In this document: positions 17,038 to 21,263 of the stretch, piece after piece
How the letters are laid out: every line of letters begins with the position of its first letter
Numbering within the stretch: position 1 is the first letter of the stretch
Origin: Oceanobacillus kimchii X50
GTDB lineage: Bacteria; Bacillota; Bacilli; Bacillales; Amphibacillaceae
Assembly (NCBI RefSeq): GCF_000340475.1
Contig: NZ_CM001792.1
Coordinates: 261,425-325,424, forward strand
DNA length: 64,000 bases
Direction of reading: 5' to 3'
Translations under genes and position numbers: made by a program
The notes under the pieces: generated by a model
What the model saw: the letters and a program-made list of their open reading frames with translations, nothing else
What the model was told of the DNA's origin: nothing
Database searches by the model: none

Positions 17038-17097
17038 ATGGAAAAACCTCTTATAATTGCGATATCTTCTGTTTCAGGCCAAAACGTATTTAGTTAA
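17038..17097 (+). pseudogene. 5' remnant of a P-loop nucleoside/uridine kinase-like gene
   Basis: After GGGAGGAATAGAG an ATG opens MEKPLIIAISSVSGQNVFS and stops. The first 14 residues are what precedes a Walker A loop (SVSGGGKTT) in uridine-kinase-like P-loop proteins, but the GGKT is missing and the frame ends after five more codons. A deletion just after SVSG removed almost the whole gene. An intact start and ribosome site mean a 19-residue peptide could still be made. Confidence 0.6.
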
Positions 17098-17321: not shown

Positions 17322-19052
17322 ATGAGAATTAAAGCAATGATGAACAACACTGTAGCGATCTTTGTACTTTCATTTACACTACTGATAGGAGTTGCCTTTA
17401 CTCCTACTGTTTTCGCAGAAGAACAATTCAGCCTTGAAGAGATTACTGTTAAGGAGTTAAAGCAGGGCTATCAAGATGGTGATTTTACAGTAGAAGAAGT
17501 AGTAGCGGCATATCTAGAAAAAATTGAACAATATGAGAATACGTACAATGCATTCACATTTATGAATGAAGATGCATTAGAACAAGCAAAAGAAATGGAC
17601 CAACGAATACAGAGCGGGGAAGCTGAAGGCGAACTTGCAGGGGTACCAATTGTAATAAAAGAAGCAGTAGATGTAGCTGGTTTTCCTTCCACTTTTGGAT
17701 GGGAAGGTTTTAGTAAAGCGAATGGGGGCGTTGAAATTATGCCGGAGGTGGACGCACCTATTGTACAGGAGTTAAAAGAAGCTGGAGCTATTATTTTAGG
17801 TAAGACAAATATTCCTGCATTTAGTGCTTCTGGAACAAATGCTAGTTCAAGTTGGGCAGGAGATACTTATAACGCTGTTAATCCTAAATTTGCACCGGGT
17901 GGAAGTAGTTCGGGTACAGCAACAGCGATTTCTGGTAACTTCGCAGTTCTAGGTATTGCTGAAGAAACTGGTGGATCGATTCAAAATCCAGCAGCCGCTC
18001 AAGGTATTGTAGGGGTGAAACCGACGTTTGGTTTGGTTACTAGTGCTGGTACAACACCTTTAGCAGCTAATACTAGGGATGTATTAGGTCCACATGCTAG
18101 AACAGTGGAAGATGCTGCAGCGATGTTGGATGTGATTGCTGGGCAAAATGACCAGGATGAAAATACAGAGCAAGCGGTTATTCCAGAAGAGGGTTACTCA
18201 AGCAGTCTTGATGCTTCAAGTTTAGAAGGAAAGCGTCTAGGAGTTTATGGTGACGGTTGGCGTGATGAAGAACTTTCTAAAGAGACTCAAGAGATGTATG
18301 ATCGTGAAATCAAAGAGTTAGAAGCACAAGGAGCAGAGATTGTCGAAGACCCATTTGCTAATTCGGGATTTAAGGAGTTTGTGGAAGAGTCAGGAAATAT
18401 CGGATACGATGCACTAGTAAGTGATATGCAAAGCTATTTGGATCGTATGGACCTAGACGGGAATATGCCCACAATATCAGAAATATTTAATCAAGTAGAA
18501 GAAGTCCCTTGGGCGGAAGGTGGCCCTCTGAATCACTTTAAAGAAGAGCGCGGAATTAATTTTGAAGAGGATTTAAAAGACCCTTACGAAGTACCAGACC
18601 AAAATGAATTTGAAGAGGTTAGAAATAAGTATATCGAAATAATAGATCAAGTTATGGAGGAAAACGATTTGGACGGTTTCGTTTATCCTCAAATGTCACA
18701 AGAAACACCTCTTTTGCATGATGAAGAGGGAAGCATTGAAGCAACAACAGTATCAGAAATTAACATAAGTGGGTTACCACTTGTGACAGTTCCTGCAGGT
18801 TACTATGAAAGTGGATCACCATTTGCATTAGCATTCTTCGGTAAACAATGGAGTGAAGCAGAATTATTAGCTATGGCGTATGATTATGAGCAAGCTACGC
18901 AACACCGTGAAGCACCTGCACTACAAGAAGGTGAAGAACTGCCTCAAACTGCTACAAATAACTTAAATTATGTTATGTTCGGAGCAATGATTATCGTAGT
19001 GGGTGTTATATTACTCACAAGCAAAAGAATAGCTATAAGAAGAGCGAACTAA
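17322..19052 (+). CDS. Exported amidase-signature enzyme with LPQTA cell-wall sorting signal
   Basis: Secreted amidohydrolase of the amidase-signature family. The Ser-cisSer-Lys triad is visible: Lys113 in PIVIKEAVD, Ser195 in PGGSSSGTA and nucleophile Ser219 in ETGGSIQNPAA. A signal peptide (cleavage after VFA, residue 32) precedes the domain. The C-terminus carries LPQTA (540-544), then a hydrophobic segment and a basic tail ending RRAN, which is a complete sortase signal. It should therefore be covalently wall-anchored. LPxTA resembles motifs used by class D sortases, and one is encoded at 145-762. AGGAGG precedes the ATG. The substrate is unknown. Confidence 0.9.
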   Translation: MRIKAMMNNTVAIFVLSFTLLIGVAFTPTVFAEEQFSLEEITVKELKQGYQDGDFTVEEVVAAYLEKIEQYENTYNAFTFMNEDALEQAKEMDQRIQSGEAEGELAGVPIVIKEAVDVAGFPSTFGWEGFSKANGGVEIMPEVDAPIVQELKEAGAIILGKTNIPAFSASGTNASSSWAGDTYNAVNPKFAPGGSSSGTATAISGNFAVLGIAEETGGSIQNPAAAQGIVGVKPTFGLVTSAGTTPLAANTRDVLGPHARTVEDAAAMLDVIAGQNDQDENTEQAVIPEEGYSSSLDASSLEGKRLGVYGDGWRDEELSKETQEMYDREIKELEAQGAEIVEDPFANSGFKEFVEESGNIGYDALVSDMQSYLDRMDLDGNMPTISEIFNQVEEVPWAEGGPLNHFKEERGINFEEDLKDPYEVPDQNEFEEVRNKYIEIIDQVMEENDLDGFVYPQMSQETPLLHDEEGSIEATTVSEINISGLPLVTVPAGYYESGSPFALAFFGKQWSEAELLAMAYDYEQATQHREAPALQEGEELPQTATNNLNYVMFGAMIIVVGVILLTSKRIAIRRAN

Positions 19053-19378: not shown

Positions 19379-20434
19379 TTATCTTTTCTTTTTATGCTGC
19401 ATGCTGATTTTCTTCCACTTCTTTTTTTCTTCAGAAGCTAATTTTGCATTTTGTTTTCGTTCGATATAAGCTAACTCACGTTGTAACTTAAGATAACTAT
19501 TCCAACGCCCTTCATCAAGATCACCCGTTTGCAAAGCTTCTTTAACTGCGCAGCTTGGCTCCGTATCATGTTTGCAGTCTGTAAATCTACATTCAGCTAT
19601 CAAATTATTAATATCTGAGAAAGTATGGCTTAATGTATCGCCATCTTCTGTCCATAATTGTAATTCTCGCATTCCGGGAGTATCAATAATTACCCCGCCA
19701 GTTGGTAAGATAAATAATTCTCGATGTGTAGTGGTATGCCTACCGCGTTTATCATCTTCTCTAACAGATCCCGTCTTTAGAACTTTTTCCGTCAAAAGTG
19801 CATTAATAAGTGTAGATTTCCCAGCGCCTGAACTTCCAATTAAGACGACAGAATCATCCTCGTGAATATTGGCCAAAATGTTTTCCTTGCCTTCTTCAGT
19901 AGTCGCATTCCATTTGAATATTGGAATACCAAAAGCAATACTGTCAGCATGTTCAATGTTTGTATCAATATCGCTGGCGAGGTCTACTTTCGAAAATATA
20001 ATACATGGTGAGGCTCCGCTCTCCCAAACAGCAGTTAAATAACGTTCTAATTTCCGTTCATTTAATTTTTCATCCGCACTAATGACAATAAATACTTTTG
20101 TAACATTACTAGCAACGATTTGTGCGTCTGTCTTCAAGCCAGCAACCTTTCGTACAATACTACTAAATCTAGGTAGCACTTTATCAATAATTACGATATC
20201 ATTAGAGTCTTTTTCTTGTAAGGTCACCCAATCTCCAACTGCTGGATAATCTTCTCTAGAGATAGCTTCATGTCGCAATTTTCCTTTTATTACTGCGGGT
20301 TTGGAACCATTTATCGTCTGTAAGATGTATCGTTCTTTTTGTTCCGTTACTACACGAGCTAATAGATCCATTTGTCCGTTATAATTGATTTCTTCTCGAT
20401 ATGCATATTTTTGTTGAAATTCGTTCAAGTTCAT
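19379..20434 (-). CDS. rsgA: Ribosome small-subunit-dependent GTPase A (RsgA/YjeQ family)
   Basis: Circularly permuted GTPase that checks the 30S subunit during late ribosome assembly. An N-terminal OB-like domain is followed by motifs in permuted order: G4 SKVD (148-151), G1 GSSGAGKS (200-207), G3 DTPG (251-254). A zinc site follows with Cys282, Cys287, His289 and Cys295. At 351 residues it is longer than Bacillus subtilis RsgA/YloQ (298), with a Lys-rich C-terminal tail. It is not next to prpC/prkC, so it may be a second, RsgA2-type paralogue. GGAGG overlaps the stop of an upstream 56-codon frame, and an attenuator-like leader precedes it. Confidence 0.9.
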   Translation of the reverse strand: MNLNEFQQKYAYREEINYNGQMDLLARVVTEQKERYILQTINGSKPAVIKGKLRHEAISREDYPAVGDWVTLQEKDSNDIVIIDKVLPRFSSIVRKVAGLKTDAQIVASNVTKVFIVISADEKLNERKLERYLTAVWESGASPCIIFSKVDLASDIDTNIEHADSIAFGIPIFKWNATTEEGKENILANIHEDDSVVLIGSSGAGKSTLINALLTEKVLKTGSVREDDKRGRHTTTHRELFILPTGGVIIDTPGMRELQLWTEDGDTLSHTFSDINNLIAECRFTDCKHDTEPSCAVKEALQTGDLDEGRWNSYLKLQRELAYIERKQNAKLASEEKKKWKKISMQHKKKR

Positions 20435-20440
20435 TTCCTC

Positions 20441-20611
20441 CTAGTGTTTTGTTGACATAAAAAAATTCGGATAGGCACTCGCCAACCGAATAAGACAAAA
20501 CACTAGAATAAACATGTATAAACAATTACATGTTAATGGGCGTCCGGCGTATAGGTAGGCAAGTGCATAAGAAAAATACGATAATTTACATTTATCATTT
20601 TCATCACACAT
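20441..20611 (-). CDS. Leader ORF (56 codons) upstream of rsgA
   Basis: ATG at 20611 stands six bases after GGAGG. The frame (MCDENDKCKLSYFSYALAYL at the start, ending FFMSTKH) stops at a TAG that abuts the rsgA ribosome site, ten bases before its ATG. The peptide has five cysteines and a hydrophobic middle. It covers both arms of a terminator and the upstream antiterminator strand, so its translation could decide which RNA fold forms. It may be a true leader peptide or a small membrane protein. A shorter 23-codon frame beginning nearby (MKMINVNYRI) is an alternative. Confidence 0.55.
   Translation of the reverse strand: MCDENDKCKLSYFSYALAYLYAGRPLTCNCLYMFILVFCLIRLASAYPNFFMSTKH
20442..20566 (-). 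promoter_or_regulatory. Putative terminator/antiterminator switch in the rsgA leader
   Basis: On the minus strand an ATTCGG...CCGAAT hairpin with a GGCGAGTGCC interior is followed by seven T (20459-20491). The upstream strand GCACTTGCC (20558-20566) can instead pair with GGCGAGTGC (20475-20483), with an ACC/GGT extension, which breaks the terminator. A perfect 10-bp repeat TAGTGTTTTG/CAAAACACTA (20496-20505, 20442-20451) encloses the terminator, and AACATGTA/TACATGTT (20511-20534) forms another hairpin. This is attenuator architecture. Confidence 0.6.
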
Positions 20612-20637
20612 CACCTTCCTCCACATTATTTTCATTC

Positions 20638-20666
20638 ATCATACAACAATTTCGGAATAATGTAAA
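20638..20666 (-). promoter_or_regulatory. Promoter of the rsgA leader
   Basis: On the minus strand TTTACA (20661-20666) lies 17 bases from TATGAT (20638-20643). Start of transcription near 20631 gives a leader of about 200 bases. Confidence 0.65.
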
Positions 20667-20747
20667 GAAAATATAGAAAAATTAGGCGATTATACTGATT
20701 TTTCATGGTAAAGTAAAAGAACGAGAATAAATTAAAGGATGATTCTA

Positions 20748-21263
20748 ATGGAATATGTTTTACTAGAACCTTTAAAGTTAGAGGATGCATATGAACTTCT
20801 TTCATTTGAAAAAGAAAATAAAGATTATTTTGAGAGGTTTGTCCCTTCAAGAGGAGAGGACTTTTATGACCATTATAGCTTTATGCACCGTATGGAAAAT
20901 TTAATTAAAGAGCAAAAGGCTGGAATTGGAATTTACTTCTTAATTAAGAATAACCATGGAAATATTTTAGGGCGTATCAATGTTGCTGAATTCGATAGAG
21001 AAAGTGGGCATGGAATTCTGGGTTATCGAATTGGGAAACTATACATAAAACAGGGAATTGCTAGTAAAGCTCTACAAATGTTATTAGATAATGCTGATAC
21101 TTTAGCAATCCATAGTTTAAGCGCTCAAACTACGATAGAAAATAAAGGATCGCAAAAGGTATTACTGCGAAATGGTTTTGTAGAGGATACATCTGTGGCG
21201 AAGTATAAAGTATCGTTTAATAATTCAACTGACGATTTAATTACTTATAGGTGGGTGCGGTAG
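20748..21263 (+). CDS. GNAT acetyltransferase (RimJ/RimL-like)
   Basis: A 171-residue acetyltransferase of the RimJ/RimL-like type (YVLLEPLKLEDAYELLSFEK at the start; IGKLYIKQGIASKALQMLLD around the acetyl-CoA loop; TIENKGSQKVLLRNGFVED near the end). ATG 20748 has AAAGGA nine bases upstream. Its stop codon overlaps the GTG of the following decayed gene (TAGTG). The substrate could be a protein N-terminus or a small amine. Confidence 0.87.
   Translation: MEYVLLEPLKLEDAYELLSFEKENKDYFERFVPSRGEDFYDHYSFMHRMENLIKEQKAGIGIYFLIKNNHGNILGRINVAEFDRESGHGILGYRIGKLYIKQGIASKALQMLLDNADTLAIHSLSAQTTIENKGSQKVLLRNGFVEDTSVAKYKVSFNNSTDDLITYRWVR

Follow-up and report, generated by a model that had tools for sequence, protein, structure and literature searches.

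Several described systems come close to the leader reported here. In Bacillus subtilis, bmrCD is subject to antibiotic-responsive leader-peptide attenuation in which a translated leader open reading frame (ORF), bmrB, is combined with alternative stem-loops and a terminator (PMC4191407). The hflXr gene (lmo0762) of Listeria, a homologue of a housekeeping ribosome GTPase, stands under a leader-ORF transcription attenuator, rli80, whose anti-antiterminator region overlaps the ORF; HflX is a ribosome-splitting factor, and the leader peptide carries an RLR motif (PMC6310831). Leaders of the ermC type and the RsgA/CpgA/YjeQ family of GTPases provide two further points of comparison.

The window (the whole stretch of Oceanobacillus kimchii X50 DNA analysed, 64,000 nucleotides, to which all positions refer) holds an RsgA-type gene, rsgA2, whose leader probably acts as a ribosome-mediated attenuator that would make this accessory RsgA paralogue respond to translation that is slow or has stalled. 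In contrast to bmrB-bmrCD, the target of this putative switch is a ribosome-assembly GTPase, the leader ORF has about 22 codons compared to 53 in bmrB, and the terminator lies outside the ORF. It differs from hflXr in that RsgA acts on the 30S subunit and the leaders carry no evident peptide motif.

The rsgA2 product scored 176.2 bits against TIGR00157 (cut-off 100), which places it in the RsgA/CpgA/YjeQ family, and it matches solved RsgA structures by sequence, e.g. 2ykr. The initial annotation had called it an RsgA-type ribosome-assembly GTPase, an assignment that holds for the type; judged by sequence, however, the gene is an accessory paralogue on a branch separate from housekeeping RsgA. 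When 55 RsgA2 proteins were placed in a tree with 24 housekeeping ones, 23 of the latter from the window's own genus, the separating branch had a support of 100/100. The housekeeping copy (298.3 bits, 30% identical to RsgA2) is found elsewhere in the genome, and the housekeeping type was present in 39/39 relatives searched. Within the order, 168 of 299 genomes carried the RsgA2 type (E ≤ 1e-60), compared to 76 of 398 drawn from the phylum, and relative to housekeeping RsgA it forms a separate, accessory branch with a putative attenuator. Translation of rsgA2 likely begins at TTG 20428. The ATG at 20434 was rejected as the start because it lies just 2 nt from the Shine-Dalgarno (SD) sequence, and 27 of the 30 loci in the comparison were assigned TTG starts.

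The divergent neighbour of rsgA2 (20739–21263, plus strand) encodes a GNAT-like acetyltransferase whose best NCBIfam model, RimJ, scored below its cut-off, and in some Ignavibacteria loci (L037, L042, L045, L047) an acetyltransferase-like frame was seen by eye to end ahead of RsgA2. RsgA-like genes were also found on plasmids. On two large plasmids (L225, labelled Lysinibacillus fusiformis in its record, and L226, labelled Stenotrophomonas rhizophila) rsgA2 stands directly before a fosfomycin-resistance-like gene, with HAD hydrolase and methionyl-tRNA synthetase genes coming next in L225.

The features of the locus are collected in Table 1. The initial annotation had described a promoter, a 56-codon frame behind a GGAGG site, a terminator with seven T inside that frame, an upstream strand able to pair with the terminator and a stop codon touching the rsgA ribosome site, and each of these elements was found in place. 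TTTACA or TTTACT-N17-TATGAT was read by eye at the matching place in 6/6 congeners, although promoter-like matches in the leader region as a whole did not exceed shuffled sequence in the promoter scan (8 versus 9.8 expected). The terminator hairpin was missed by a simple scan with loops of 3–8 nt and found once longer loops were allowed. The proposed upstream strand is the right antiterminator partner: on the minus strand GCACTTGCC (within strand 2) is complementary to GGCGAGTGC (within strand 3), and by eye the pairing extends over the full strands with 12 of 13 pairs formed, one of them G-U. It is the TAG of the 56-codon frame that contacts the rsgA SD (GGAGG, 20437–20441).

Our analysis added an outer stem, a helix between the leader SD (strand 1) and the later part of the ORF (strand 2), a 23-codon frame and the TTG start. 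The outer stem, an 11-bp perfect helix next to the rsgA SD, represents a possible second, translational layer of control. The small hairpin between the leader stop and the outer stem is predicted also in the sister genome G010, with one G-U pair. Overall, the 205-nt leader folds at −56.1 kcal/mol (z = −4.04), and 0 of 200 dinucleotide shuffles were as stable. A known Rfam element was rejected, as no Rfam family scored above the gathering threshold in the window (0 matches), nor did any at the leader when 20 loci were scanned. The sole match among these loci was a Bacillaceae-1 RNA (RF01690, 57.3 bits) at L008:166–261 (minus strand), near rsgA2 of one congener and away from the leader.

Table 1. 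Features of the rsgA2 locus in the window, in order of transcription.
Feature	Position	Strand	Basis
Leader region ahead of rsgA2 (promoter, leader, terminator, antiterminator pair)	20428–20666	minus	
Sigma-A-type promoter of leader, TTTACA-N17-TATGAT	20638–20666	minus	promoter scan and congener comparison
Strand 1, leader SD and start region (anti-antiterminator arm)	20602–20624	minus	1:2 pairing in minimum free energy fold
56-codon frame, ATG after GGAGG	20441–20611	minus	judged not the conserved sensor frame
Leader ORF, 23 codons, MKMINVNYRIFLMHLPTYTPDAH, stop TAA	20533–20604	minus	SD duplex; kept in congeners
Strand 2, GCACTTGCCTACC, within leader ORF (antiterminator 5' arm)	20554–20566	minus	fold and comparison of 81 leaders
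Small hairpin ACATGTAATTGTTTATACATGT, after leader stop and ahead of outer stem	20512–20533	minus	fold; not counted in switch core
Outer stem 5' arm, CTAGTGTTTTG	20496–20506	minus	fold; unchanged in sister G010
Strand 3, GGTTGGCGAGTGC (antiterminator 3' arm; overlaps terminator 5' arm)	20475–20487	minus	complementarity to strand 2
Intrinsic terminator ATTCGG...CCGAAT and seven T (strand 3:4)	20459–20491	minus	−10.7 kcal/mol, longer-loop scan
Outer stem 3' arm, CAAAACACTAG	20441–20451	minus	fold; abuts rsgA SD
rsgA2, GTPase paralogue of the RsgA/EngC type, TTG as probable start	19379–20428	minus	TIGR00157, tree

The initial annotation had proposed an attenuator ahead of the RsgA-type gene with the 56-codon frame as its sensor. 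The leader-peptide attenuator is retained, but the 56-codon frame was rejected as the sensor because it is not kept in five of seven congeners: only the window and the sister G010 (RsgA2 91% identical) have it open throughout, and in the five others it stops after 16–31 codons. The 23-codon frame, which begins 7 nt downstream of the 56-codon start, is kept in 7/7 congeners; its length is 23 codons in both window and sister, and 21–22 in the others. Its SD duplex in the window amounts to −15.1 kcal/mol, and it is the frame that a covariance model from other families aligns in the window.

A leader ORF of this kind, defined by an ATG start, an SD duplex of −10 kcal/mol or stronger, 15–32 codons and a position 85–420 nt upstream, was found ahead of 145 of 155 RsgA2 genes by a rule that was set before this count, yet after many leaders had been inspected. 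The 155 loci comprised 55 returned by searches and 100 taken by hand in list order irrespective of leader content, and omit 18 RsgA2 matches among those listed (one being L203) as well as unlisted ones. Four of the ten misses carry a leader ORF further upstream on a looser look, and six loci (L090, L107, L143, L155, L157, L160) had none even in a wider look. By the same rule, housekeeping rsgA genes gave 0/24 and 0/19, the latter with one further locus lacking a recognisable start, as an imperfect control in that these genes often lie close behind an upstream gene. Among 89 long ORFs tested in the window and nine loci, 9 of the 10 positives were rsgA2 itself, leaving 1 positive in 80 control ORFs, which may include the leaderless RsgA2 of L037. 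This single positive is a 19-codon ORF at 17038–17097 of the window (plus strand) with a fair SD (MEKPLIIAISSVSGQNVFS), upstream of an amidase gene at 17322–19052.

In 34 further, mostly more distant loci (28 phylum-draw loci uncounted before, L203 from the same order and five from plasmid records) a leader was found in 19 by the strict rule and in 22 by the looser rule, counts that were partly lowered by starts that are hard to place (doubtful in L197, L198, L201, L211, L212 and L215). The leader-positive loci came from genomes of the same class and the same phylum and include the Listeria record L228. At L205, L218, L222, L223 and L229, all missed by the strict rule, a leader is visible by eye.

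Conservation of the small ORF and of both helices in relatives had been proposed as a check of the initial reading, and both were found to be kept, with some compensatory changes. In the leaders compared, strand 2 is complementary to strand 1 and to strand 3, and strand 3 is part of the terminator, of a hairpin at the rsgA SD, or of both. Across 81 non-redundant leaders, the mean 1:2 pairing energy was −17.2 kcal/mol for matched strands versus −13.1 for strands swapped between leaders (Fisher p 1.4e-12; against shuffles 3.5e-29) and the mean 2:3 energy −27.6 versus −19.6 kcal/mol (p 1.9e-16; shuffles 2.9e-49), p values that overstate independence as the leaders share descent. The 1:3 combination, used as a negative control, gave no signal in the same leaders (−13.2 versus −13.5 kcal/mol swapped; p 0.9; shuffles 0.43). 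For the window alone the swap ranks were modest (1:2, p 0.17; 2:3, p 0.049). Differences in the 1:2 helix read by eye include GAGTGATGT/ACATCACTC in L170, GAGCGATG/CATCGCTC in L150, AGTGTGAT/ATCACACT in L154 and GAGAAGGTGA/TCACCTTCTC in L006.

RNAalifold on 25 leaders of the commonest type produced the 2:3 helix unprompted, with 97.0% of cells paired and double changes in 2 of 8 pairs. The corresponding values were 93.8% and 4 of 6 for the terminator, and a weaker 78.4% and 1 of 5 for the 1:2 helix. The covariation term was small (−0.16 of −11.97), and one shuffle measure of 2:3 was at chance (269/500). Conserved columns of alignment A2 were mostly those of the SD, the start codon and the complementary strands, and the alignment of the seven congeners was too diverged for pair counting. 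The window and its sister G010 differ by 14 substitutions over 196 nt, yet the switch strands, which make up 85 nt, are free of them (P 0.00024, with the strand limits drawn when the substitutions were already known).

Terminators were present in 53 of the 81 leaders versus 5.1 expected, and leaders without one may act on the rsgA SD only. Some leaders in which no terminator was seen by eye (e.g. L015, L150, L165, L170) have strand 3:4 near the target SD and in this may resemble the ermC type, as may the window with its outer stem at the rsgA SD. The rsgA2 leaders differ from ermC in that they often add a terminator, that ribosomes would be expected to stall early in the leader ORF, and that folding gives no release of the SD.

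Folding of the leader in alternative states, also suggested with the initial annotation, bore the switch out in part. The free window leader formed the 1:2 helix and the terminator, masking of the first codons gave the 2:3 antiterminator (19 expected pairs versus 3), and masking up to the stop codon restored the terminator, with off-helix probabilities of 0.74, 0.47 and 0.89, respectively. Start masking added 2:3 pairs in 115 of 145 leaders and halved the off-helices in only 46 of 145 under equilibrium folding; these helices persisted in the sister G010, where the terminator stays, and in L006, L066 and L015. The core of the rsgA SD was mostly paired in the off fold of the window and of 134 of 145 leaders, a count that stands without a control set. 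Start masking did not release this SD (window 0.19 versus 0.48 in the off state; mean 0.33 versus 0.40), and the translational layer is thus without support from this folding. Equilibrium folding is a crude approach and backs the switch no further than this.

A covariance model, R1, was built from 25 leaders with no member of the window's family in the training set and run over 150 genomes of the order. It returned 55 matches at E ≤ 0.01 (E-values are rough) in 52 genomes, 48 of which end 24–369 nt before listed RsgA2 matches, 18 of these being training rows. The window leader was the sole match in its 3.83-Mb genome (E 0.0036, or 6e-5 on the window alone, both rough). Two of the remaining matches were chance matches (L265, L266) and two lie upstream of further RsgA-like genes (L260, L261). 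At the latter loci a more divergent RsgA-like gene with a leader of like kind is followed by an msrA-like gene, and by eye the leaders carry CACGTCCC inside the ORF and GGGACGTG ahead of the T run.

The other three matches (L262, L263 and L264, in genomes G141, G071 and G129) lie upstream of SmdA/BmrC-like multidrug ABC half-transporters, of which L263 and L264 scored below the family cut-off on incomplete pieces. These transporters resemble bmrCD and may be its orthologues. A leader design common to drug efflux and RsgA2 appears from these matches, a further likeness to bmrB-bmrCD. For RsgA proteins in general, a drug response is favoured by the Streptomyces coelicolor paralogue SCO6149, one of the paralogues that WblC activates and that rise when cells are given tetracycline (PMC7157823). 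As counter-evidence, the level of an RsgA in an Enterococcus strain dropped when chloramphenicol was present at sub-inhibitory concentration (PMC12441150).

The locus combines the elements of a leader-peptide attenuator, namely a short translatable ORF behind an SD of its own, found in the window and among the relatives counted in 145 of 155, an intrinsic terminator before the gene, and an antiterminator (2:3) and an anti-antiterminator involving the ORF (1:2) that are mutually exclusive and conserved beyond controls. The comparison established the strands, their conservation and the strong leader SD, and for the kinetics of the switch we infer the following. With no ribosome on the leader, 1:2 would form, leaving 3:4 to form, and the gene would be off. 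Under fast translation the ribosome would pass over strand 2, and 3:4 would again form and keep the gene off. A ribosome held at the start or the first codons would cover strand 1 and free strand 2 for pairing with strand 3, so that the terminator would be broken and the gene turned on.

The signal read by such a switch was weighed against the 81 leader peptides, which show no evident shared motif. As the leader peptide is unconserved, what the leader senses is probably any arrest early in elongation and not a particular amino acid. An attenuator of the trp type, in which a codon run senses one charged tRNA, would have a like anatomy of leader ORF, antiterminator and terminator, but the peptides are not dominated by one residue (Ile, the most frequent, reaches 9.2%), and three identical residues in a row occur in just 4 of 81 (T, V, L, L), with no one residue shared. 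Amino-acid-specific attenuation was rejected on this lack of a regulatory codon run and is the least probable of the readings considered. Of the 8 leader codons that differ between the window and its sister, moreover, 6 do so non-synonymously, and the changes were too few for a codon-position test of the pair to reveal selection on either peptide. An arrest peptide as in ermCL, where the nascent chain and one drug would stall the ribosome at a fixed codon, is improbable: factors acting on the ribosome can have such leaders, as in the case of hflXr and its RLR motif (PMC6310831), yet no shared peptide motif was seen here, and the A-Q-P that recurs in one leader type is a coding shadow of strand 2 (CAGYCC, which 52 of 145 leaders have 39–51 nt downstream of their ATG) and is missing from other types.

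The conserved RNA helices ahead of a ribosome-biogenesis gene could also suggest a riboswitch or autoregulation by RsgA or a ribosomal protein, with the small ORF incidental. Against this stand the strong-SD ORF kept in 145/155 loci, the conserved columns of A2 and the Rfam result given above for the window and the 20 loci, and we consider it highly unlikely. A constitutive leader, in which a weak terminator and a translated small ORF do no more than keep basal expression low, is hardly more credible, and the like holds for translational coupling by way of the 56-codon frame, which is open in the window and G010 and has its stop codon in contact with the rsgA SD. That frame is not kept in 5/7 congeners, and coupling would not need mutually exclusive helices, yet these are conserved. 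A different kind of alternative accepts the same switch and takes RsgA2 to be not a rescue factor but an inducible brake, which would sequester 30S subunits and so reduce translation in dormancy or phage arrest. Overproduced Escherichia coli RsgA inhibits T4 and has been proposed to keep active 70S ribosomes from forming (PMC10475562), but that work concerned the housekeeping protein and not RsgA2, and we regard a brake as unlikely, though deserving some weight.

Returning to the general arrest sensor, its signal is probably ribosome-targeting antibiotics or a comparable translation stress, and RsgA2 made under such stress would act on the 30S subunit. We tentatively put forward, at somewhat less than even confidence, that RsgA2 may be an inducible ribosome-rescue or protection factor ('RsgAr') for arrested or drug-bound 30S, widespread in Bacillota. 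Its leader would be a generic sensor of early elongation arrest, of a design shared with multidrug ABC transporters and reading the first codons and not the peptide; the housekeeping RsgA would build 30S, and the attenuated copy would be made only when translation fails.

The initial annotation knew of no such switch for rsgA, and likewise no account of an rsgA attenuator was found in the open-licence literature, preprints excluded. The main text of an attenuator survey (PMC2965389) is without EngC, YloQ and YjeQ, and nothing relevant was found in the same literature on lmo1330 or on raised RsgA under antibiotics. As far as this literature shows, the kind of mechanism is already known, and the novelty lies in its target, in how widely it occurs and in the absence of any apparent peptide signal.

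In summary, accessory RsgA copies are common in the order, and no account of their role was found in the open-licence literature. The switch ahead of nearly all RsgA2 genes examined would tell the timing, with RsgA2 made when translation of the leader is disturbed. The large natural set of attenuators with little constraint on the peptide may be useful for studying general early-stall sensing. It is predicted that RsgA2 belongs with the translation-stress and intrinsic drug-response genes, such as those for HflXr and BmrCD, and not with routine assembly.
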